This document shows positions 29,467-42,047 of a stretch of DNA of 64,000 nt, piece after piece. Source of the stretch: Deltaproteobacteria bacterium (GTDB taxonomy: Bacteria; Desulfobacterota; SM23-61); NCBI GenBank assembly GCA_016875165.1, contig VGSF01000006.1, positions 1-64,000 of the forward strand, in the 5' to 3' direction. Numbering within the stretch: the first letter of the stretch is position 1; each line of letters opens with the position of its first letter. The notes under the pieces are model-generated. The model was not told the origin of the DNA. It saw only the letters and a program-made list of their open reading frames with translations, and ran no database searches. The position numbers and the translations under genes are program-made.

Positions 29467-30216
29467 TTAGAGTCCCAGGTAGGTTTTACGGAGGACCTCG
29501 TCTTGCAGCAGTTGTTCGCCTGTGCCTTCGGCGATGATTTTACCTGAGGAAAGGACGTAATTACGGGAGGCCATTTTGAAGACCGTGCTGACTTCCTGCT
29601 CAACAAGGAGCACGGTGATTCCAAGATTCCGGATCTCGCCAATTTTTTCAAACACATGTCTTCGGAAAATGGGGGCCAGGCCAGTGGAAGGCTCATCAAT
29701 GCACATCATTTTGGGCCGGGACATCAAGGCCCGGCCGAGGGCCAGCATCTGCTGCTCTCCGCCGGATAGGGTTCCGGAGATCTGCTTGGCTCGCTCTTTT
29801 AGCACAGGAAATAATTGATAGACTTTCTCAAGGTTATCATGCGCTTCTTTCTTCTCCTTAAGCAGGTAAGCGCCCGCATACAAATTGTCGATGACCGTCA
29901 TTTCCCGAAACGGCCTTCTTCTTTCGGGGCAATGAATCAAGCCTCTTTCAACAATCGCATGGGCGGGTATCTGATCGATTCTCTCCCCGCCAAAGCTTAC
30001 CTCACCCTCGAAGATTACGTCGCCATGGGTTGAGCGGCGGGTGATCTCCCTTTCCCAGGCAACCAGGCCGGTAATGGCTCTGAGCAACGTGGATTTGCCG
30101 GCCCCGTTGGGCCCAACCAGGCTCACCAACTCTTCCCGGTCAACGCCCATGCTCAGGTCGTTGATGATCATGGCCTTGTCATAGCAGACCGTCAAATGGG
30201 TTACTTCCAGGAGCAA
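29467..30216 (-). CDS. livF: Branched-chain amino acid-type ABC transporter ATPase LivF
   Basis: A 249-residue ATPase. Walker A is VGPNGAGKSTLLRAITGL near residue 35, the signature is GTLSGGEQQMLALGRALMSR near 142, and Walker B is PKMMCIDEPSTGLAP near 163, followed by the H-loop region. It ends with the KTYLGL tail typical of LivF. It is the last gene of the liv operon, 2 bases after livG. The operon also encodes a CoA ligase, so the imported substrate may be an aromatic or other organic acid rather than an amino acid. Confidence 0.93.
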   Translation of the reverse strand: MLLEVTHLTVCYDKAMIINDLSMGVDREELVSLVGPNGAGKSTLLRAITGLVAWEREITRRSTHGDVIFEGEVSFGGERIDQIPAHAIVERGLIHCPERRRPFREMTVIDNLYAGAYLLKEKKEAHDNLEKVYQLFPVLKERAKQISGTLSGGEQQMLALGRALMSRPKMMCIDEPSTGLAPIFRRHVFEKIGEIRNLGITVLLVEQEVSTVFKMASRNYVLSSGKIIAEGTGEQLLQDEVLRKTYLGL

Positions 30217-30218
30217 CG

Positions 30219-30986
30219 TTAGATTCCTCCTTTGCCCAGGTAAGAATCGACAACCTCTTTGTTGTTCACCACCTCTTCCGGCGGGCCGTCAGCGATAATT
30301 TCTCCATAATTGAGCACTATAATTCGATCTACAATCTTCATCAACTGCTGCAACTTATGCTCGATGATGATCATGGCCGGTCCTTCGCTGTGCAATCGCC
30401 CGAAACGGCCTCCTTTGTGGAGCCTTTTAATGGATTTAGCCATAAGATCCGTTTCAGCAGGACTCAGCCCCCCGAAGGGCTCGTCCAGAAGAAGCAATTC
30501 CGGATCTGTGGCCACGGCCCTGGCCACCTCCAGACGCTTGAGATCGCCCTGGGAAAGGGTGGAGGCTTTTTCCAGGGCCATATCGGAGATGCCGGCAAAT
30601 TCCAGGGCATCCATAGCCTTGGCCTCGATTCTTTTGACCCATTCACCCCTCTTCATGGCCCGGGGCCCCAGACAGGAGACCATGACGTTGGCAATAATGG
30701 GGAGACGGCGAAAGGGTCTCATATTCTGGAAGGTGCAGGCTATGCCCAGGTTGATGATATCCCAGGTCTTGAGCCCGATAATGTTCTGGCCCTTAAAAAT
30801 GATACTCCCTGAATCAGGTTTCAAAATGCTGGTTATCAGCCGCACCAGGGTGGTCTTGCCGGCGCCATTAGGGCCTATCAAACCTACAATTTCGTTTCGG
30901 TTCATGGAAAAACTGGCGTTATTGACAGCTCGCAGCCCCCCGAAATTCTTAGTAAGCCCACGCAATTCTAAGAAGGCTTGGTCCAT
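30219..30986 (-). CDS. livG: Branched-chain amino acid-type ABC transporter ATPase LivG
   Basis: A 255-residue ATPase. Walker A is IGPNGAGKTTLVRLITSI near residue 36. The LivG-specific long insert contains IACTFQNMRPFRRLPIIANV. The signature is STLSQGDLKRLEVARAVATD near 150 and Walker B is PELLLLDEPFGGLSP near 170. IIIEHKLQQLMKIVDRIIVL follows. It stands 1 base downstream of the CoA ligase gene and 2 bases upstream of livF. The large antisense frame across this gene and the ligase is a shadow. Confidence 0.93.
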   Translation of the reverse strand: MDQAFLELRGLTKNFGGLRAVNNASFSMNRNEIVGLIGPNGAGKTTLVRLITSILKPDSGSIIFKGQNIIGLKTWDIINLGIACTFQNMRPFRRLPIIANVMVSCLGPRAMKRGEWVKRIEAKAMDALEFAGISDMALEKASTLSQGDLKRLEVARAVATDPELLLLDEPFGGLSPAETDLMAKSIKRLHKGGRFGRLHSEGPAMIIIEHKLQQLMKIVDRIIVLNYGEIIADGPPEEVVNNKEVVDSYLGKGGI

Positions 30987-30987
30987 A

Positions 30988-32697
30988 TCAGCTTTCCTCT
31001 ACCTCTTCCCTCAGCTCCCGGCGGGAGACCTTGCCAACGTCAGTCTTGGGAAGTTCTCCACGGAATTCAATGATCTTGGGAATCTTGTAGTGCGCCAGAT
31101 TTTCGCGGCAAAACTCGATAATCTCTTCTTCGGAGATCTTACCTCTGGCGTCACTCTGCAACACCACATAAGCCTTTATCAACTGGCCCACCTTGGGATC
31201 AGGCACGCCAACCACTCCGGCGGCCTTGATCTTCGGATGTCTATAGAGCACCTCTTCCACGTGCCGGGCAAAGACCGAAAAACCTTTATACTTAATCAGA
31301 TCCCGCTTGCGATCAAAAAAGTGAAAATATCCTTCCTCATCCATCCTGACCAGATCCCCGGTTCTAAGCCACTTTTTCCCATCAATCTCTATAAGCGCTT
31401 CTTTTGTCTCCTCAGGTCTTTTCCAATAACCCTGCATTATGTTGGGACCGTTAAGGATCAATTCACCCACCTCGTCTATCCCTTTGAATTCCGTACTATC
31501 GACATCCACAACCGCGGCAGTGACTCCCGGGATGGGCACTCCAAAGGAGCCGCTCTTGGGTCGGTCAAAGGGAGTGCTGTGGCTGACGGCAGTAGTCTCG
31601 GTCATGCCGTACCCTTCCAATATCTTGGTGCCGGTTCGTCTCTCCCAGCCTTTGATGGTGGATTCATGAAGGGTGTCCGCGCCGCAGGCGATCAATTTCA
31701 GCCGCTTCCAGTTGACCCGGTCTGTTTTTTCATGATCCTTGAGGTATTCAAAAAGCGTAGGAACACCATAGAAGCCGGAGGCCTGGTAGCGCTCCATGGC
31801 CGAGAGGATGTCATCGACATCCGGGGTGGTGAAAAGAACAAGGGTGGAGCCTTGAACCAGGCCATTTAGCATCACTACAACCTGCCCATAGATGTGAAAG
31901 AAGGGCAAGAAGGCTATGCCCACCTCTTTACCCTCTTCGAATATAGGCCAGAAGGCAACGGTCTGGGCCTGAAGTGAGACTATATTATGATGAGTCAAGA
32001 TGGCTGCCTTGGGGAGCCCGGTGGTTCCACCGGTATAGGGCAGGGCGGCAATATCCTCCCTGGGCTGAATCTTGATTTGGGGAGGCCGGGGTGGATATTT
32101 CTTGATCAGGGTCTGAAACTGAAGAAGGCCGGCCTCTTCCATATACCTGGGAGTTGGCGCGTGCATATCCCCATAGATCTTTCCCAGGGCGCTCTTACCC
32201 AGATGCTTTTTGAGCAGAGGTAGATACTCGGCGATATTGGTCAGGATCACATTCTTGAGGGGAACACCTGTCTTCGCTACATTATCATAGAGGATATCCT
32301 GGCAGATAATCGTCTCGGCCTCACTGTCCGTAAGTTGATGTTTTACTTCCTTGCTGGTATAAACCGGGCTTATGGGAGTGACCTTGGCCCCTATTTTAAG
32401 GGCCGCAAAATAGGCGATAACATACTGAGGGCAATTCAATAAATACAAAGCCACGGTTTGGCCTTTGATCACCCCCAGATCGGCCAGGGCCGTGGCGAAC
32501 CGGTTGGTCAACTCCTTAAGTTCCTTGTAGCTGATCTTATTTCCGTAAAAGACCAAAGCGGTCTTGCTGGCGTATTTATCCGCCCTCTGGTCAAATAGCT
32601 CCGGTACGGATATCTCGGGAACCACAACCTCACTGGGAACGCCCTTCGGGTAATATTTCAGCCAGGGTTTTCCCATATACACTGCCTTTGCGTCCAT
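30988..32697 (-). CDS. AMP-forming acyl/aryl-CoA ligase inside the liv operon
   Basis: A 569-residue adenylate-forming ligase. Core motif A3 is ALPYTGGTTGLPKAAILTHH near residue 215. The central GYGMTETTAVSHST follows near 362, the hinge TGDLVRMDEEGYFHFFDRKR near 450, and the catalytic lysine is in LPKTDVGKVSRREL near the end. It resembles FadD-type long- or medium-chain and aryl-acid ligases. It lies between livM and livG with gaps of 21 and 1 bases, so it is co-transcribed with the transporter. The likely role is trapping the imported acid as its CoA ester (inference); the substrate is unknown. Confidence 0.9.
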   Translation of the reverse strand: MDAKAVYMGKPWLKYYPKGVPSEVVVPEISVPELFDQRADKYASKTALVFYGNKISYKELKELTNRFATALADLGVIKGQTVALYLLNCPQYVIAYFAALKIGAKVTPISPVYTSKEVKHQLTDSEAETIICQDILYDNVAKTGVPLKNVILTNIAEYLPLLKKHLGKSALGKIYGDMHAPTPRYMEEAGLLQFQTLIKKYPPRPPQIKIQPREDIAALPYTGGTTGLPKAAILTHHNIVSLQAQTVAFWPIFEEGKEVGIAFLPFFHIYGQVVVMLNGLVQGSTLVLFTTPDVDDILSAMERYQASGFYGVPTLFEYLKDHEKTDRVNWKRLKLIACGADTLHESTIKGWERRTGTKILEGYGMTETTAVSHSTPFDRPKSGSFGVPIPGVTAAVVDVDSTEFKGIDEVGELILNGPNIMQGYWKRPEETKEALIEIDGKKWLRTGDLVRMDEEGYFHFFDRKRDLIKYKGFSVFARHVEEVLYRHPKIKAAGVVGVPDPKVGQLIKAYVVLQSDARGKISEEEIIEFCRENLAHYKIPKIIEFRGELPKTDVGKVSRRELREEVEES

Positions 32698-32718
32698 ATC
32701 TTTTCCTCACAGTTCGTT

Positions 32719-33759
32719 TTAATCCAATGCCGCTGTACAGACGCGACAGGCGCTGCGGGTGGCTACGTTTCTGATCTTGCACCTTGGGCACTCTTTTTCG
32801 ATCTTGTTGCGTACCCAGGGGAGAAGGCCATTGGGCATATAGAGAAGGGTTAACAGGATGATAAGCGCAAACATTAACATCCGATATTCGGGCCAAAAAT
32901 GCAACAACTCCAGCAAAGGAAAGAGGATAAAGACGGCTCCGATGGGCCCATATATAGTGGCTACCCCGCCGAATATTGCCCAAATTACAACGGTGAAGGA
33001 CATTGAGACTTCCAGGTTGGCCGGGCCGGCAATTCTCATAAAATGGGCGTAGAGCCCCCCGGCTATCCCGGCAAAAAAACCACTCAGGCTGAAAGCCAGA
33101 AGCTTGTAGCGGGTCGTATTGATGCCCGCTGTCCTCACGGCCACCTCATCTTCCCTGATGGCGTGGAAAATAATGCCGGTATGAGAGGTGGTTATCTTCC
33201 ACATGATTGTGGAAAGACCCAGCATGAGCGCCACAGTAATATAGTAATCAGTGATCCGGGACCCGGAAAGGCGGGCCAAACCGGAGACTCCCAGTTCACC
33301 CCCGGTGACATCAGGGATCGCAAAGACAATGCCCATCAGAATAATGGGGAAGGCCAACGTGGTCAGGGCCAGGTAAGTTCCCTTGAGCCTGAGGCAGGGA
33401 ATGCCGATAATCAGGCCGGCCAAAACCGCCGCCAGTCCACCCAGCGGGATACTCCCCCAGGGAGGTATATGAGCGTGCAGATTCAAAAGGGCGGCAGTGT
33501 AAGCCCCCACGCCAAAGAAGAGGGCGTGCCCGAAATTCATCTGCCCGGTAAAACCGGAGAGCAGGTCCCAACTGGCTGCCAGGATAGCAAAGATGCTGCT
33601 TAATATCAGGATGCGAAGTAAGTAAGGATCCTGGGTAACCACGGGCAAGAAGATGAGAACTAAAAAGAAAAGAAGAACAACAACCCGGCTGGGAAGGACG
33701 AGCACCTCCCCCTTAAAAACGGTATAAAGCTTTCTCAGGTAGAAACCCAGTATCCCCAT
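32719..33759 (-). CDS. livM: ABC transporter permease LivM with C-terminal zinc ribbon
   Basis: A 346-residue permease with about ten membrane helices. LLSGFTGQMNFGHALFFGVG near residue 67 and the cytosolic EDEVAVRTAGINTTRYKLLAF near 210 are LivM signatures. The last 23 residues form an extra module with four cysteines at 324, 327, 338 and 341 (CPRC...CRVC), a small zinc-ribbon shape not part of the classical LivM. It is separated from livH by 2 bases. Confidence 0.92.
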   Translation of the reverse strand: MGILGFYLRKLYTVFKGEVLVLPSRVVVLLFFLVLIFLPVVTQDPYLLRILILSSIFAILAASWDLLSGFTGQMNFGHALFFGVGAYTAALLNLHAHIPPWGSIPLGGLAAVLAGLIIGIPCLRLKGTYLALTTLAFPIILMGIVFAIPDVTGGELGVSGLARLSGSRITDYYITVALMLGLSTIMWKITTSHTGIIFHAIREDEVAVRTAGINTTRYKLLAFSLSGFFAGIAGGLYAHFMRIAGPANLEVSMSFTVVIWAIFGGVATIYGPIGAVFILFPLLELLHFWPEYRMLMFALIILLTLLYMPNGLLPWVRNKIEKECPRCKIRNVATRSACRVCTAALD

Positions 33760-33761
33760 GT

Positions 33762-34631
33762 TTATCTCTCTTCCTCAAAGGCAACGCCAAAGAGGCCTTC
33801 CGGCCTAATAAGCAGGACCGCGATCATGATGGAAAGGGCCACGGAACCTTTCAGAAAAGCTCCCATGGGTATCAAAAAGACCACCAACGCTTCAGCAAAT
33901 CCCAGGATATAGGCCCCGACAAAGCTCCCTTTGATACTGCCCATTCCGCCCAGGACCACAACAGCCATCATCATGATCAGAGGGTGCATCCACATAAAAG
34001 GATTAACGATAGTAAGGGGAGCAATCACGGCGCCCGTAAAGGCGGCCAGCCCGACGGAGACACCCATGGTAATCATGGCCACCCGGCTATCATTCATACC
34101 CATCAGGTTGGCCACTTCCCTATCCTGAGCCGTAGAGCGAATAGCCAGACCAACCCTGGTTTTAAATAACAAGGCCCAGACCAAGGCTAACACCAGCAGG
34201 GCCGCGGCAACGGTCAGCAATTGCTGATAGGCGATCTTCACTCCGAAAATTTTCCGGTGCCCCTGAATGAGATGAGGCACGCCCAGAAAGTCTCCGGTGA
34301 AGATGAGGAGCATGATTTCCTGCATGGCCATGGCCAGGGCTATGGTGGCTATCAGCACCGCCGCCTCATGCTCGCGTATAGGGTCTATGAAGAGTTTGTA
34401 GGAGATTAGTCCTATCAAAGTCACCGGTATTACGGCCGCCAGCATACACAAAGCCGGATTAATGCCTAATTTCTTAGTGCCGTAATAGATAAAATAGGCG
34501 GCCAGCATGTAAAAGGCGGTATGGGCGATGTTAACTATGCGGGCCACGCCGAATATCAGGGAAAATCCGATGGCCAGAAGGGCGTATACACTTCCGTTAA
34601 TCAAACCGCTTAGGGTTATATCCAGTATCAT
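33762..34631 (-). CDS. livH: ABC transporter permease LivH
   Basis: A 289-residue permease with eight or so membrane helices. It begins DITLSGLINGSVYALLAIGF, has FGVARIVNIAHTAFYMLAAY near 28, the coupling segment TAQDREVANLMGMNDSRVAM near 180, and ends KGSVALSIMIAVLLIRPEGL. The partner of LivM. It is the first gene after a 450-base repeat-filled gap that separates it from livK. Confidence 0.94.
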   Translation of the reverse strand: MILDITLSGLINGSVYALLAIGFSLIFGVARIVNIAHTAFYMLAAYFIYYGTKKLGINPALCMLAAVIPVTLIGLISYKLFIDPIREHEAAVLIATIALAMAMQEIMLLIFTGDFLGVPHLIQGHRKIFGVKIAYQQLLTVAAALLVLALVWALLFKTRVGLAIRSTAQDREVANLMGMNDSRVAMITMGVSVGLAAFTGAVIAPLTIVNPFMWMHPLIMMMAVVVLGGMGSIKGSFVGAYILGFAEALVVFLIPMGAFLKGSVALSIMIAVLLIRPEGLFGVAFEEER

Positions 34632-34719
34632 ATAGCCTCAGGATATTGGTCCTTCCCACCCCTCAGGACCTCAACCACAAGGGGTGGGAATATTCTGAAG
34701 AATAAGTTATTTTGTAACA

Positions 34720-34910
34720 GAGCCTCTTGCAAAAGTATTTTTTTGTGGTTCGACAAGCTTGTCCTGAGCGAACCGTTCACCCTTCGAGAACCTCAGGGCG
34801 AACGGTGAGTCGAAGGGCTCACCACGAACGGAAAAACTAAATAATTTCAACCTAAGCCCGTTCACCCTGAGCCTGTCGAAGGGTAAATTACGGACTTTTG
34901 CAAGAAGCTC
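34720..34910. repeat. Mini-element, CTTGCAAAAGTC-end family (copy K)
   Basis: Ends GAGCCTCTTGCAAAAGT and ACTTTTGCAAGAAGCTC, inverted with one mismatch. The interior differs from the other copies of the family: it holds TTCGACAAGCTTGTCCTGAG, CGAACGGTGAGTCGAAGGGC and TTCACCCTGAGCCTGTCGAA, another common dispersed palindrome type. Confidence 0.75.
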
Positions 34911-35083
34911 AACAGTTTAGCCATTTTAAATGCTGTCAAATCCCCCTTCATCCCCCTTTTCCAAAGGGGAAAAAGCTGAATTTTTTATCTAATTCCAATT
35001 AAAAACCTCTCCTCCCTTTGGAAAAGGGAGGTCGGGAGGGATTTCTATTCCGCCTGAGGCGGATCAACCCGCTAAATTGTTAC
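34911..35083. repeat. Mini-element, GTAACA-TTTAGC-end family (copy 3)
   Basis: Abuts the preceding element directly. Left end AACAGTTTAGCCATTTT, right end CCGCTAAATTGTTAC, which finishes at 35083, one base before the livK stop codon. The interior has the same opposing C-rich/G-rich blocks and AT linker as copy 1 (11015-11203), in inverted order. Confidence 0.75.
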
Positions 35084-35084
35084 G

Positions 35085-36368
35085 TTATCTTTTATATTTC
35101 TTAACCATCCAGGGCGGCACCTTATAAGGAACCATGCCTTTATAAGTGACCCCTTCCCAACCATTCGGCCACCAGGCCACCATTTTGCCATCCTGCCATT
35201 GAGTGGTGATGCCTGTCGAAAAACCAGGCCCAAAGACCAGATCGTGGTTTTTGTCAAATTTTGACTTGGGAGCGCCGACACTTACACGTTCGGACTTGGC
35301 AATCACGGGGATTAATTTCCCTGCATCAAGCGTCCCGGTCTCTTCTATTGCCATACCCAGATTACTTCTTATAGCGTCATAGGTAATCGCCGTGTAAGTC
35401 GGCAACTCTCCGAATCTTTTGATGTATTTCTCAATAAAAGGCTCGGTTAAATCACTAAAGGCAACACCCCGGCAAAAAGTATTCATGGACACGGCATAGT
35501 TGCCCTTGCCCTGGGTGGCCGACCAGAAACCATCTTTCTGGGACTCTACATTGATGCCTACAAAGGCGGCCGGTATCTCGAGTTCTCCTGCCTGCCTGGC
35601 AAAGGTGATTCCCACTGAAGCGGAAAAAATGGTGAAGATGATTTGGGCGTCCGCCCGCTGTACAGCAGTGAGCTCGGCCGTCACATCAGTAGCCGTAGCC
35701 GACGGCCTCCAGATGCCGACTATCTCCATACCCATCTTCGGCACATTATCTTCAATGGCCTTAATCATCGGGTCAATCCATACTGCTTTCTCAGCAACGA
35801 TGGCCACCTTCGCTTTCTCGATGCCCAATTCTTTTTTCAGTATCCCGTTGACAGTTGCCAGATTGATTAAACACACCCGCACCAGGTAGTTGGAATTCGT
35901 AGGCGTAACCCGGAACCAATATTTATACCGCTCATAGTCCTTACCCACTCGAGTGCAGAGTTCGGGATGGGCTGCGCCGCACCCCAGGAAAATTTTCTTG
36001 TAGTCCATGGCAATGTCCTGCATGGCAAAGACAGCCTCGGTTCTGAAACCGCCCACAACGAAATTCACCTTGTCCTTAGTCATCAAACGCTCCATGGCGC
36101 TGGTGGCATCTGTCACGCTCAAAAATTCGTTAGAATCCGCTTTGACCAGTTCAACTTTCATTTTCTTTTTGCCGACCTGCAGGCCTCCTCTGGCATTGAT
36201 CTCCTCAGCGGCCAGAGTGGCTCCATCCCAGTGTCCCTTGCCCTGCATGAAATGCATTGGGCCAATCACGCCGACCTTGATGACGTCGGCCGCCCGGGCC
36301 GGAAAGCCGATCGTTAGGGCCAAACCGGCCATAACCAAGACGCTTAATACAAATCTTGATCTTTTCAT
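35085..36368 (-). CDS. livK: ABC transporter substrate-binding protein (LivK-type)
   Basis: A 427-residue periplasmic binding protein. The signal peptide is MKRSRFVLSVLVMAGLALTI followed by GFPARAA, with a cleavage site near residue 27. The mature part starts DVIKVGVIGPMHFMQGKGHW, typical of type I periplasmic (LivJ/K, Peripla_BP_6) proteins. VNFVVGGFRTEAVFAMQDIA follows near 115. It is 40-50 residues longer than classical leucine-binding proteins, like homologues that bind aromatic or other organic acids. It precedes livHM-ligase-livGF. The gap to livH has been filled by two mini-elements, which may separate it transcriptionally. Confidence 0.9.
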   Translation of the reverse strand: MKRSRFVLSVLVMAGLALTIGFPARAADVIKVGVIGPMHFMQGKGHWDGATLAAEEINARGGLQVGKKKMKVELVKADSNEFLSVTDATSAMERLMTKDKVNFVVGGFRTEAVFAMQDIAMDYKKIFLGCGAAHPELCTRVGKDYERYKYWFRVTPTNSNYLVRVCLINLATVNGILKKELGIEKAKVAIVAEKAVWIDPMIKAIEDNVPKMGMEIVGIWRPSATATDVTAELTAVQRADAQIIFTIFSASVGITFARQAGELEIPAAFVGINVESQKDGFWSATQGKGNYAVSMNTFCRGVAFSDLTEPFIEKYIKRFGELPTYTAITYDAIRSNLGMAIEETGTLDAGKLIPVIAKSERVSVGAPKSKFDKNHDLVFGPGFSTGITTQWQDGKMVAWWPNGWEGVTYKGMVPYKVPPWMVKKYKR

Positions 36369-37049: not shown

Positions 37050-39365
37050 ATGGTCTGGATGGGGGTTCCATTCCTGAAAATATCTCTGCTGCTGATGGGG
37101 GTAAGCGGCATCGTCGCCCAGATCGTGCTGCTCAGGGAACTCCTTGTCTCTTTTTTCGGCAATGAACTTACTTTGGGCATCATCCTCGGAAACTGGCTCG
37201 TCCTGGAGGCCATTGGCTCCTTCTACCTCGGAAAATCCGTGGAAAAGACCGGGAAAAAAATAGAGATTTATGTATTGCTGCAATTGTTCTTTTCCCTGGC
37301 TTTTCCGGCCATGATATATCTCTCCCGCATATTCAAGAATTTTCTACCCGCCACCCCGGGGGAAGGACTCGGTCTGGTTCCTATCTTTTTCTTTTCGTTC
37401 TTGATCCTTCTCCCCGTAAGCATCCCCCATGGCGCGCTTTTTACTTATGGGTGTAAACTCTATTCCCGGCACCTGAGGGAGGATGCCTCCACCATCGGGA
37501 AAGTATATATCCTGGAAACCATCGGTTCCATTATCGGCGGCCTGCTCCTTACCTTGCTTCTTATTCAGCATCTCCATTCTTTTGAGATCGCCCTGGCCAT
37601 CTCCCTGATGAATGCTCTTATTGCCGCCTTCCTGCTTTGGCCGGGATATCCGCCTCCATCTACTTCCCTCTGCAAGGGTCTCTTCATCCTGGGAATCGCC
37701 TGCGCCATTTTTTTTGCCGTTTCCCTTTTTACTCCGATTGCGCAGAAGATCGATTCGTCTTCCGTCCGATCGCAATGGAAAAATCTGGAAGTCATCCACC
37801 ATGAAAACTCCATCTATGGAAATATCACGGTCACGAAAAGGGAAGAACAGTTCACCTTTTTTACCGATGGGACTCCTTCCATCACTGCGCCCGTCCCGGA
37901 CATTGCTTCCCTTGAAGACCTGGTTCACTTCTCCATGCTTTCCCATGAAAAACCTGAATCGGTTTTAATCCTCAGCGGGGGAGCCGGCGGAATGATCCAT
38001 GAAATTTTGAAGTATCCCGTGAAACAGGTGGATTATGTCGAACTTGACCCTCTTCTCCTGAAACTGGTGCAGAAATTTTCCACCCCCTTAACCCAATCCG
38101 AACTCTCCGATAACAGGGTCCATATTCACTATAAGGATGGACGATTTTTCATCCATAAGACCAGGGAAAAATATGATGTGATTTTTATCGGACTTCCCGC
38201 TCCCCAGGAACTGCAGACCAATCGATTGTTCTCTTTGGAATTTTTCTCCCTGGCCAAAGCAAAGATGAAACCGGGCGGGATCATCGTTTTAACGCTCCCC
38301 GGATCGCTCACCTATATCAGCCCGGAGTTAAGGGATTTGAATGGGTGCATCCTGGACACTGTGAAAAGTGTCTTTGGCTATGTGAAAATCATCCCCGGGG
38401 ATGTCAATCTTTACCTGGCCTCTGACTCAGCAAAACTGGAAAGAGTGACCGCCAAAGAAATCATGGAGCGTCACGAAGAGCGAAAAATTCAGACAAACCT
38501 TTTCACAAAGGCATATACAGAATACCGCCTCGATGAAGGAAGGCTGAAATGGTTTTTTAAATCCATGGGAGATAGAAAGGTGCGGCTCAACTCCGATTTT
38601 CACCCTCTGGGTGTCTTTTATAACCTATCCTACTGGAATGCCCTCTTTTCTCCCCATCTTTCCGGAATTTTTAAATGGTTTGAAGGCTTCAACTTTCCTC
38701 TGGGAAGCGGCCTGGTCGCCATTTTCACCATCTCCCTAACGGCCATTATGATAAAGATCCCCCGCCTCTCCCGATCCTGCGTTCCTTATGCCATTTTCAC
38801 CTCGGGTTTAACGGGGATGATATTCGACCTGGCCATCATCTTTACCTTTCAAACGCTTTACGGCTACCTTTATTATCAAATTGGCCTTCTGATTACCATT
38901 TTTATGGTGGGGATCGCCCTAAGCAGCCTCTACATCACCCGGCGCCTGGATCGAATAAAAAAGGATGCCTCTCTTTTCTTAAAGACAGAGATGGGCATCA
39001 TAATCTTTGCCCTGCTACTCCCCTTTGTGTTCTCCATCCCGGCCCAGCACCTTGATAAAACAGGCGTCTATGTGCTCCTCTATGCCATCTTTCTGGCCAT
39101 GTCCTTCCTTTCCGGCGTTTTCATCGGGCTGCAATTTCCGCTGGCCAACAAGATCTATCTCCGCCTCCCTGGACAGCGAGAAAATTTTGCCCGGACATCC
39201 GGCTTACTCTACGGCGCAGATCTTTTGGGAGGTTTCGTTGGGGGGATCTTCGGAGGATTTTTCCTGCTGCCCGTTCTGGGCCTTAAGGAATCCTGCTTTC
39301 TGATGGCCATGATCAAAGGCAGCAGTTTCTTCCTTTTCCTGTTCTTTATAAAAAGGCAAAAATAG
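37050..39365 (+). CDS. Membrane-embedded spermidine-synthase-like protein
   Basis: A 771-residue three-part protein. Residues 1 to about 230 form seven membrane helices (LLLMGVSGIVAQIVLLRELL at the start). Residues about 245-480 are a soluble domain with the polyamine-synthase/methyltransferase fold, and about 545-771 are a further set of hydrophobic helices. In the soluble domain VDYVELDPLLLKL and YKDGRFFI keep the nucleotide-binding acidic residues. The aminopropyltransferase motif GGGDGG reads SGGAGGMIHEIL (Asp lost), and the catalytic Asp position (VD.xDP) reads FIGLPAPQEL. It is therefore probably not a true spermidine synthase. The genes that follow encode two Tat-signal radical-SAM enzymes. 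Confidence 0.82.
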   Translation: MVWMGVPFLKISLLLMGVSGIVAQIVLLRELLVSFFGNELTLGIILGNWLVLEAIGSFYLGKSVEKTGKKIEIYVLLQLFFSLAFPAMIYLSRIFKNFLPATPGEGLGLVPIFFFSFLILLPVSIPHGALFTYGCKLYSRHLREDASTIGKVYILETIGSIIGGLLLTLLLIQHLHSFEIALAISLMNALIAAFLLWPGYPPPSTSLCKGLFILGIACAIFFAVSLFTPIAQKIDSSSVRSQWKNLEVIHHENSIYGNITVTKREEQFTFFTDGTPSITAPVPDIASLEDLVHFSMLSHEKPESVLILSGGAGGMIHEILKYPVKQVDYVELDPLLLKLVQKFSTPLTQSELSDNRVHIHYKDGRFFIHKTREKYDVIFIGLPAPQELQTNRLFSLEFFSLAKAKMKPGGIIVLTLPGSLTYISPELRDLNGCILDTVKSVFGYVKIIPGDVNLYLASDSAKLERVTAKEIMERHEERKIQTNLFTKAYTEYRLDEGRLKWFFKSMGDRKVRLNSDFHPLGVFYNLSYWNALFSPHLSGIFKWFEGFNFPLGSGLVAIFTISLTAIMIKIPRLSRSCVPYAIFTSGLTGMIFDLAIIFTFQTLYGYLYYQIGLLITIFMVGIALSSLYITRRLDRIKKDASLFLKTEMGIIIFALLLPFVFSIPAQHLDKTGVYVLLYAIFLAMSFLSGVFIGLQFPLANKIYLRLPGQRENFARTSGLLYGADLLGGFVGGIFGGFFLLPVLGLKESCFLMAMIKGSSFFLFLFFIKRQK

Positions 39366-39504
39366 TTTATAATAAATTTATCGCAGAGGAATTCCCTTTT
39401 TCAACTTTAGGCGCTTGTCCCTTACCCTTTACTTTTTCAAGTTAAGTGAGTATGCTTTTTCCGCGACTGCCCACGGAAAAAATGGCCCGCCTCAGACGGG
39501 CAGC

Positions 39505-39565
39505 GAAAAGTCCTGAAATCCCCCCTAACCCCCCTTTGGCAAAGGGGGGAAGGGGGGATTTATCG
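39505..39565. repeat. GC-rich palindrome
   Basis: GAAATCCCCCCTAACCCCCC...GGGGGGAAGGGGGGATTT, nearly perfect, in the 427-base gap before the radical-SAM pair. It may act as a terminator or as a REP-type repeat. The rest of the gap shows AAATTCCTATACAATTTAAT (39644-39663), also present near 27371, but no gene. Confidence 0.5.
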
Positions 39566-39792
39566 GCAGGCATTTCCTTCTTACAAACATGTTTGTTTTA
39601 ATGAGGCGCTAAGCGCCTAAAGTGCCTAAAGTTAAAAAAGGAAATTCCTATACAATTTAATTATGGTTTTAAAAACTCGGCGATCTCTGTGGCGAATTTA
39701 ATCCAAATCTTTCCAACTGGAATAACAACCATCGCTGTTTAACTTCAACCGCGCAGATGTTCCCCAACCGTTTGACCGGAGTGAGGGAATAA

Positions 39793-40908
39793 ATGTTGAA
39801 TAGAAGGAATTTCCTTAAGAGCATGGGGATGATTCTTTCAGGAATGGGGGGGGCATCATTTCTCTTTCCGGAAGCGGCCCCGGGGAAAACCACCCCTGTT
39901 TTCAAAGAAGCGATGTTTTATATAAAAGGAGATGGGCAAAATTTGCAGTGCGCCCTCTGTCCGAGAAGATGCCTCATTCTGGAAGGGAAAAGGGGTTTTT
40001 GCAGAAACAGGGAAAACCAGAAGGGAAAATTATATTCGGTTGTTTACGGAAAACCTGCGGCGGTCGATACGGGGCCGATCGAAAAAGCTCCCCTTTACCA
40101 TTTCCTTCCCGGGCATTTCAGACTTTGTCTCACCTGTGCCAGCTGCAATCTCAGGTGCAAATATTGCCACAACTGGCATCTTTCCCAGAAAAGTCTGGAG
40201 GAGATGAGCCATTTCTCTTTTTCCCCTGCGGAAATCGTGCAAAAGGCCCAAAAACATAAACTTCCCTCCATCTCCTTCACCTATACCGAGCCCACGGTGT
40301 ATTATGAGTATTTGTATGACATCTCGATTGTCGCCAAACAGGCGGGAATTAAGACCTCGATCGTCTCCAATGGGTATATCAATCGCGAACCCCTCTTAAA
40401 GCTTCTTCCGGTCCTCGATGCAGTCAAGATCGACCTCAAAGGGTTCAGCGAAAAATTTTATGAAGAGGTCTGCTCGGCGACCCTCAAGCCTGTCCTCGAA
40501 TCCCTGATCACAGTAAAAAAAGAGCGGGTCTGGCTGGAGGTTGTCAACCTGGTCGTCCCCACTTTAAACGACCATCCGAAGATGATCGACGAAATGTGCC
40601 GCTGGATCAAAGAAAATCTGGGGCTTAATACCCCGATTCATTTCACCAGGTTTTTCCCCAACTATAAATTGACCCATCTCTCAGCCACTCCGATATCCAC
40701 CCTGGAATCAGCTTACGAAATAGCCCGGAGGAATGGATTGAGATACGTTTACATCGGGAATGTTCCCGGACATAGGCACAACTCAACCTTTTGCCCTTCC
40801 TGCAAAAAAATGGTCATTCACCGGTCGCACTTTGACATCCTCGAGATGAATATGCTGGAGGGAAAATGCAAGTTCTGCAATTTAGCCCTTCAAGGAAAAT
40901 GGACTTAA
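39793..40908 (+). CDS. Radical-SAM protein with Tat signal (AmmeMemoRadiSam type), copy 1
   Basis: A 371-residue protein. The N-terminus NRRNFLKSMGMILSGMGGAS is a twin-arginine signal. A Cys-rich leader follows (CALCPRRCLILEGKRGFCRN), then the [4Fe-4S] radical-SAM motif CNLRCKYC near residue 118. The barrel contains SFTYTEPTVYYEYLYDI and VKIDLKGFSEKFYEEV. A C-terminal zinc-type pair follows (CPSCKK...CKFCN). This order matches the PflA-related enzymes of the AmmeMemoRadiSam group, whose substrate is unknown. The usual partners AMMECR1 and Memo are not in this window. Start ATG at 39793. It overlaps the second copy by 10 bases. Confidence 0.85.
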   Translation: MLNRRNFLKSMGMILSGMGGASFLFPEAAPGKTTPVFKEAMFYIKGDGQNLQCALCPRRCLILEGKRGFCRNRENQKGKLYSVVYGKPAAVDTGPIEKAPLYHFLPGHFRLCLTCASCNLRCKYCHNWHLSQKSLEEMSHFSFSPAEIVQKAQKHKLPSISFTYTEPTVYYEYLYDISIVAKQAGIKTSIVSNGYINREPLLKLLPVLDAVKIDLKGFSEKFYEEVCSATLKPVLESLITVKKERVWLEVVNLVVPTLNDHPKMIDEMCRWIKENLGLNTPIHFTRFFPNYKLTHLSATPISTLESAYEIARRNGLRYVYIGNVPGHRHNSTFCPSCKKMVIHRSHFDILEMNMLEGKCKFCNLALQGKWT

Positions 40909-42047
40909 GATTGAGCCGGCGCTCCTTCTTGAAAAAATCTTTCCTTTGTTTTTTATCCGGAGGGATAGGATCTCATCTCCTCCCTTCTTCCTCCCCCCCT
41001 AAAGGAATTGATTCCCCTTCTTCTCCCCCGAAAGGCCTCGAGAGAAAAGCCCTGTTTTTCAAAAAGGGCGCGAATAATTTTATTCAATGCCAGCTCTGTT
41101 TTCGGCAGTGTCCGATCCCGGAAGGGAAAAGGGGTTTTTGCCGGGTGCGGGAAAACCAAAAGGGGGAACTTTGCAGCCTGGTTTACGGAAAACCGGCTGG
41201 CCTGCAGATCGACCCGATCGAACTCGAACCGATGTATCACCTGGCCCCCGGACATAAGAATCTTTGCGTCTATACCGCCTCCTGCAATTTCCGGTGCAAG
41301 CACTGCCATAACTGGACGATCTCCCAGTCTGCGCCGGAGCAGATCCGCCCCATTCCCCATACTCCCCGGCAGATTGTCGAAGAAACTCTGAGGCAGGGGT
41401 GTAAATCAATCTCCCACAGCATCAATGAACCCACGGTTTTTTATGAACTGATGTATGATGTCGTTCAACTGGCCAAAGAGAAGGGACTGTGGACCCTCTG
41501 CCATACCAACGGCGGGATGGCCCGAGCGCCCCTGCTGGAATTACTCAAATTCATGGATGCCTTTACAGTTGACCTTAAAGCCTTCAATCAGAAATTTTAT
41601 CAGGAGATTTCGGAAGCAAGGCTGGCGCCAGTCCTGGAGACTTTGCAGACCATCAAAGGGGCGAATAAACATCTGGAAATCGTCAATCTGGTGATCCCCA
41701 CCCTCAATGATGATCTAACTGAAATCAAGAACATGTGCCGATGGATTGGGCAAAACCTGGGAAAGGATACTCCCATCCATTTTACCCGTTTTTCCCCATC
41801 ATATAAGATGACCCATCTCCCTCTTACGCCCATCAAGACCCTTGAGGAAGCCAGGGAGGTCGCCAGGGGTGAAGGGATAAACTACGTATATATCGGGAAT
41901 GTCATGGGGCATCCCGGTAATAGCACCTATTGCCCAAGATGCGGCCAGAAGTTGATTGAAAGAACTCATTTCATTGTCTTGAAAAATAATGTGCAAAAAG
42001 GCCGTTGTCCCTTCTGCCAGGAAAAGATCCCGGGTATCTGGAGTTAG
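40899..42047 (+). CDS. Radical-SAM protein with Tat signal (AmmeMemoRadiSam type), copy 2
   Basis: A 382-residue paralogue of the preceding gene. The start at 40899 gives MDLRLSRRSFLKKSFLCFLS, a textbook twin-arginine signal. A Ser/Pro-rich linker follows, then CQLCFRQCPIPEGKRGFCRV, the radical-SAM cluster CNFRCKHCHNW, SISHSINEPTVFYELMYDV, and the C-terminal CPRCGQK...CPFCQEK pair. All Cys needed for the SAM cluster are present, so it looks active. It overlaps copy 1 by 10 bases, so the two are made together. The 3' end overlaps the convergent nuclease gene by 4 bases. Confidence 0.85.
   Translation: MDLRLSRRSFLKKSFLCFLSGGIGSHLLPSSSPPKGIDSPSSPPKGLERKALFFKKGANNFIQCQLCFRQCPIPEGKRGFCRVRENQKGELCSLVYGKPAGLQIDPIELEPMYHLAPGHKNLCVYTASCNFRCKHCHNWTISQSAPEQIRPIPHTPRQIVEETLRQGCKSISHSINEPTVFYELMYDVVQLAKEKGLWTLCHTNGGMARAPLLELLKFMDAFTVDLKAFNQKFYQEISEARLAPVLETLQTIKGANKHLEIVNLVIPTLNDDLTEIKNMCRWIGQNLGKDTPIHFTRFSPSYKMTHLPLTPIKTLEEAREVARGEGINYVYIGNVMGHPGNSTYCPRCGQKLIERTHFIVLKNNVQKGRCPFCQEKIPGIWS

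Follow-up and report, generated by a model that had tools for sequence, protein, structure and literature searches.

Three genes on the forward strand of the window, by which we mean the whole 64,000-nucleotide stretch of DNA that was analysed, encode a polytopic membrane protein with a spermidine synthase-like domain (SPD) and two radical-SAM enzymes (rSAMs) with twin-arginine signals (RS1 and RS2). Their positions agree with the first-pass annotation, as does the overlap of the RS1 and RS2 genes by 10 bases; an alternative RS2 start is possible at 40866. The features of the locus are:

37050..39365, + strand: SPD, polytopic membrane protein with a spermidine/spermine-synthase-like domain, 771 aa (PF01564, NF037959, AlphaFold)
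37062..37730, + strand: N-terminal seven TM helices of SPD (residues 5-227), N-terminus predicted inside (model, loop K/R bias)
37737..38648, + strand: SpdSyn-like Rossmann domain of SPD (residues 230-533), predicted extracytoplasmic (Foldseek, motif counts)
38694..39359, + strand: C-terminal seven TM helices of SPD (residues 549-770), C-terminus predicted inside (model, loop K/R bias)
39366..39792, no strand: SPD-RS1 intergenic gap (comparison with sister genome G003)
39793..40908, + strand: RS1, Tat-signal AmmeMemoRadiSam-family radical-SAM enzyme, 371 aa (TIGR04337, PFL-AE fold)
39793..39894, + strand: twin-arginine signal and linker of RS1 (NRRNFLK, hydrophobic segment; N-terminal sequence, AlphaFold)
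40144..40167, + strand: CxxxCxxC [4Fe-4S]/SAM motif of RS1 (C118, C122, C125; alignment)
40899..42047, + strand: RS2, second Tat-signal AmmeMemoRadiSam-family radical-SAM enzyme, 382 aa (TIGR04337)
41283..41306, + strand: CxxxCxxC motif of RS2 (sequence)

The sister genome G003 has about 107 bp between SPD and RS1 and the window 427 bp, a difference which indicates that about 320 bp of repeat-like sequence were gained or lost. This sequence, absent from the sister genome, includes the palindrome-like stretch cccccctttggcaaagggggg. Just upstream of SPD the window carries a liv-type operon on the minus strand (29467-36368).

Predicted properties of the three proteins

Against TIGR04337, the model of the AmmeMemoRadiSam rSAM, RS1 reaches 344.5 bits and RS2 331 bits, both above its curated cut-off of 220 bits. 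Their N-termini, MLNRRNFLKSMGMILSGMGGASFLF in RS1 and MDLRLSRRSFLKKSFLCFLSGGIGSHLL in RS2, each display a twin-arginine motif and, after it, a stretch without charged residues; the first-pass annotation had pointed to such motifs on both proteins, and they are indeed kept across relatives. The CxxxCxxC cluster that it described is likewise present in RS1 and RS2 and is invariant in 178/178 aligned family members, and the family cysteines also occur in both proteins. By motif and hydropathy calls both possess the twin-arginine motif and hydrophobic segment of Tat substrates, and Tat machinery (TatC) is encoded in the genome; we infer that both are probably exported by Tat. In the AlphaFold model of RS1 a helix at the N-terminus is joined by a disordered linker (residues 18-34) to a folded domain that starts near residue 38. 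The best matches in the PDB come from pyruvate formate-lyase activating enzyme, the closest solved fold, with which RS1 shares the SAM-binding core; that enzyme, however, is cytosolic, carries no signal and is without the extra N- and C-terminal cysteine sets.

SPD matches PF01564 (E=1.6e-27), MFS_1 weakly, and NF037959 MFS_SpdSyn with 60 bits (cut-off 40). In its AlphaFold model (pLDDT 87.2, pTM 0.85) the SpdSyn domain stands between two sets of seven TM helices (14-TM), and Foldseek aligns this domain with SpeE structures (best 1uir, E=4.4e-12). The K/R fraction of the loops is 0.192 on the N-terminal side and 0.039 on the domain side, with a bias of the same sign in 82/82 SPD homologues, so that under the positive-inside rule the SpdSyn domain is predicted to face outward. 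A TM region fused to a SpdSyn domain is also found in the fused MFS/spermidine synthases (NF037959) and the PRK03612-type aminopropyltransferases (NF002956), from which SPD differs in its 7+7 TM arrangement, its inserted and presumably outward-facing domain and its replaced catalytic residues; against NF002956 it reaches 190 bits, far under the cut-off of 472.

The replacements concern both catalytic motifs. GGAGG stands for GGGDGG and GLPAP for DSTDP in the window protein, and the DSTDP/GGGDGG residues are replaced in most of the 82 homologues, where G, N or H occupies the first Asp position; the pair N391-R392 is invariant in 82/82. Because these residues are lost and the catalytic Asp is absent, aminopropyl transfer by SPD is unlikely, and true polyamine synthesis was rejected as improbable from the motif counts over the 82 homologues. 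Of the SAM/polyamine-synthase domain that had been assigned to the membrane protein, the SpdSyn fold thus stands, whereas a working polyamine synthase is unlikely. The domain retains the ELDP and DG(R) segments, which bind the nucleoside in SpeE enzymes, and it may bind SAM or a related nucleoside.

Distribution and conservation of the neighbourhood

A GTDB genome scan with the rSAM alignment gave 80 named loci, picked by rSAM similarity alone, and in this set 37 of the 67 rSAMs with an export-type N-terminus have SPD within 6 kb. The SPD-rSAM neighbourhood spans about ten phyla, with record titles naming Omnitrophota, Deltaproteobacteria/Thermodesulfobacteriota, Thermodesulfovibrionales, Bacteroidales, Cloacimonadota, Latescibacterota, Elusimicrobia, Anaerolineae, Halanaerobiaceae and Bathyarchaeota, although single titles may be wrong since the loci are mostly MAGs. 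A cultured carrier is Mangrovibacterium marinum DSM 28823 (L171). The tandem rSAM pair beside SPD recurs in L112 (Bacteroidales) and in L113 and L114 (Omnitrophota), and in L113 tatC lies just upstream, adjoining the tandem Tat-rSAM pair and SPD.

The first-pass annotation had regarded SPD as standing where AMMECR1 and Memo would be expected. This contrast does not hold, as SPD, Tat-rSAM, Memo and AMMECR1 share one operon in many relatives (L073, L078, L079, L081, L082, L162, L172, L179, L180; SPD, Tat-rSAM and Memo in L104), and contig C69 of the window's own genome encodes a signal-bearing Memo, AMMECR1 and a third Tat-rSAM. Where Memo and AMMECR1 accompany SPD and exported-type rSAMs in relatives, they usually bear signals themselves. 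Around 40 SPD homologues of the phylum, SPD is found beside Tat-rSAM and signal-bearing Memo/AMMECR1 in L073, L078, L079, L081 and L082, and elsewhere beside a Tat-rSAM. L078 has a Memo-AMMECR1 fusion with a signal, and some Memo and Memo-AMMECR1 signals are lipoprotein-like. Two kinds of neighbour alone recur widely beside exported rSAMs, SPD at 56 loci and Memo/AMMECR1 at 38, counted over loci partly selected by SPD, and no conserved substrate gene beside the module appeared among the neighbours of exported rSAMs.

There are exceptions. SPD lies away from the rSAM in the relatives G001, G002 and G005-G007, 4-6 kb separate the two in two relatives, and one family has a cytosolic rSAM about 3 kb from its SPD, a case found through SPD and not an independent count. 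In L068, L069, L070 and L072, all of one family, a branched-chain amino-acid ABC transporter operon is followed by SPD as the last gene. L317 is a mixed case, in which no signal was recognised on the TIGR04337 rSAM next to a signal-bearing Memo.

Another family of rSAMs with Tat signals adjoins SPD or the Tat AmmeMemo rSAM at several loci (L044:1568-2617, L083:7093-8190, L084:6053-7126, L095:3285-4367, L129:6686-7738, L137:7824-8987). It resembles RS1 and RS2 in its RR signal, its radical-SAM domain and, sometimes, its neighbours, but does not belong to TIGR04337 (23.6 bits); we take its members in L044, L084 and L095 to be COG1313-like.

Sixty random regions from 59 genomes evenly drawn from the phylum contained 61 complete rSAM genes, 22 of them of export type. 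SPD lies within 6 kb of 6/22 exported and 0/39 cytosolic rSAMs in this sample (Fisher p=0.0013), and among 80 random Memo genes a signal-bearing Memo is tied to SPD-containing genomes (13/16 vs 10/64, p=1.3e-6), both p values being optimistic since common descent links the rows. The Memo-centred sample shows that Memo and rSAM rarely lie side by side in the phylum. A chance linkage of SPD and rSAM, which the first-pass annotation would have accepted had homologues lacked the RR motif or had the genes not been neighbours in relatives, was rejected by the adjacency in the GTDB set, the random sample and the tree described below; apart from the exceptions listed, the linkage persists.

The FastTree phylogeny was built from 178 rSAM domains without the signal region (84 Tat, 25 Sec/lipoprotein-type and 69 cytosolic, called by motif and hydropathy, with 9 entries set by eye before the tree). 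Export-type and cytosolic rSAMs form two groups, with 11 label changes against 54.9 in shuffles, 0/500 of which were as low. Tat, Sec and lipoprotein-like signals interchange inside the exported group, which is expected if export itself is what is kept, and some of its members have no recognisable signal. RS1 and RS2, about 50% identical, fall into different subclades of this group, and a recent duplication giving rise to the pair was rejected on this ground.

The radical-SAM residues are retained in the exported enzymes. Between 107 and 109 of the 109, like the cytosolic enzymes, have CxxxCxxC, E166 (108/109), D214, K216 and E249, and 11 conserved cysteines are each kept in at least 108/109. 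By contrast, His occupies position 191 in 72/109 exported and 2/69 cytosolic enzymes, and Asn position 252 in 102/109 and 17/69, respectively; these differences suggest a different partner or substrate.

Five TIGR04337 genes are present in the genome of the window: the pair described here, one on C69 and two unsignalled ones on C48 and C25. The proposal to look for AMMECR1 and Memo elsewhere in the genome is answered by C69, where a Memo with an N-terminal signal segment, AMMECR1 and the Tat-signal rSAM lie together. AMMECR1 is here a separate gene without a signal, the same region in G002 encodes one fused signal-bearing Memo-AMMECR1 protein, and four genomes from the family of the window's own genome show AMMECR1 fused to a Memo with a signal. 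Memo/AMMECR1 forms one fused gene in some close relatives and is split or TAG-interrupted in others (L041:8077-9614 vs L047:6973-8505; L228). The unsignalled rSAM of C48 (L042:7836-9631) directly follows tatC, a linkage kept in same-family relatives (L049, L053, L054). Beside RS1 and RS2 neither Memo nor AMMECR1 is present in the window; at C69 and in numerous relatives they do adjoin an rSAM.

The same gene order is seen in the nearest relative (L019), where the 3' end of SPD is followed by RS1 and RS2. The window SPD is 59-69% identical to SPD in another family of the phylum and only 38-40% identical to that of most genomes of its own family, and RS1 and RS2 share 75% and 71% identity with their counterparts in L066. 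The sister genome G003 alone has this module in common with the window, and neither G000 nor G003 yielded a native-type SPD. It is possible that the module is a horizontal replacement, given the missing native-type SPD in both genomes.

A probable extracytoplasmic AmmeMemoRadiSam variant and its alternatives

Several features tie the locus to the AmmeMemoRadiSam system (TIGR04337, Memo PF01875, AMMECR1 PF01871), namely an rSAM family well over the cut-off, the same Fe-S cysteines, the same three partners in many relatives, and Memo and AMMECR1 encoded in the same genome. It departs from that system in the export-type N-termini of rSAM and Memo, the frequent Memo-AMMECR1 fusion, SPD as a fourth component, the subfamily residues at 191 and 252, and the location of Memo and AMMECR1 away from the window genes. 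We interpret the locus as probably an extracytoplasmic variant of the AmmeMemoRadiSam system, in which SPD acts as an outward-facing SAM- or nucleoside-binding partner. RS1 and RS2, activase-like in fold, would fold and gain their Fe-S clusters in the cytoplasm, would then be exported in the folded state by Tat and would stay on the outer side of the inner membrane. At this site they would work with Memo and AMMECR1, the former signal-bearing and both encoded here on another contig, in a membrane complex that includes SPD, whose catalytically altered domain most likely would bind SAM or a SAM-derived nucleoside for the rSAMs. The target may be a periplasmic protein, cofactor or lipid. Electrons might arrive via membrane redox proteins: DsbD_2-type membrane proteins recur near exported rSAMs at 6 loci and NapH-like Fer4_5 (4Fe-4S) membrane proteins at 4, and a cytochrome c adjoins SPD in L073, though as an electron supply these neighbours are suggestive only. 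Gene order by itself is no proof that proteins act together.

Radical-SAM enzymes are regarded as cytosolic, as they need SAM and a strong reductant, and we know of no supply of SAM and low-potential reductant outside the cytoplasm, which counts against this interpretation. The unsignalled AMMECR1 of this genome, the exceptions to SPD-rSAM adjacency and the exported-group members that have no recognisable signal also weigh against it. The difficulty over SAM and reductant would disappear if the N-terminal segments were membrane anchors only, holding the rSAM bodies on the cytoplasmic face with SAM and ferredoxin, and the plain hydrophobic N-termini of some members and the unsignalled AMMECR1 of the window's own genome are consistent with such an arrangement. 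We nevertheless consider it unlikely, because a positive N-terminus followed by a hydrophobic stretch predicts an N-in/C-out orientation, the Tat motifs are conserved in sequence, the Memo and Memo-AMMECR1 partners bear signals, some of them lipoprotein-like, and the SPD domain is predicted to lie outside. The redox-related neighbours could also point to exported Fe-S redox or scaffold proteins that have lost SAM chemistry, but the retention of the radical-SAM residues at the level of the cytosolic enzymes makes this quite improbable. That SPD is a genuine polyamine synthase, beside rSAM genes that are unrelated or only loosely linked to it, accords with its PF01564 domain, its SpeE fold and its separate position in some relatives, such as that after the branched-chain amino-acid ABC operon, yet is very improbable in view of the replaced DSTDP/GGGDGG residues, the invariant N391-R392 and an adjacency that recurs across phyla and in the unselected sample.

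The extracytoplasmic variant is in line with the membrane-associated, SAM-linked system of three genes proposed in the first-pass annotation, which is still the best reading given the conserved SPD-rSAM neighbourhood and Tat-type signals. The underlying observation is real and wider in extent than first thought, and its interpretation is partly supported. To our knowledge the AmmeMemoRadiSam system is uncharacterised, and we know of no established molecular role for Memo and AMMECR1, which both have human homologues. In our literature search, which did not cover Burroughs 2019 on Memo contexts, no paper describing exported radical-SAM enzymes or the SPD module was found; an eLife article of 2020 (PMC7159879) refers to Burroughs et al. 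2019 on the subject of Memo-Ammecr1 systems.

A more far-reaching scenario can be put forward tentatively, and we regard it as rather doubtful: bacteria and some archaea might keep an extracytoplasmic radical-SAM chemistry, in which SPD would move or load SAM, or remove products, across the membrane and so feed the exported rSAMs, which together with exported Memo/AMMECR1 would modify a target in the periplasm or the membrane, the electrons being drawn from redox proteins of the membrane. If it holds true that an exported subfamily is conserved along with a membrane partner that faces outward, this would imply SAM chemistry outside the cytoplasm. The operon likewise gives a new handle on Memo and AMMECR1, as it names candidate partners and a compartment for them.
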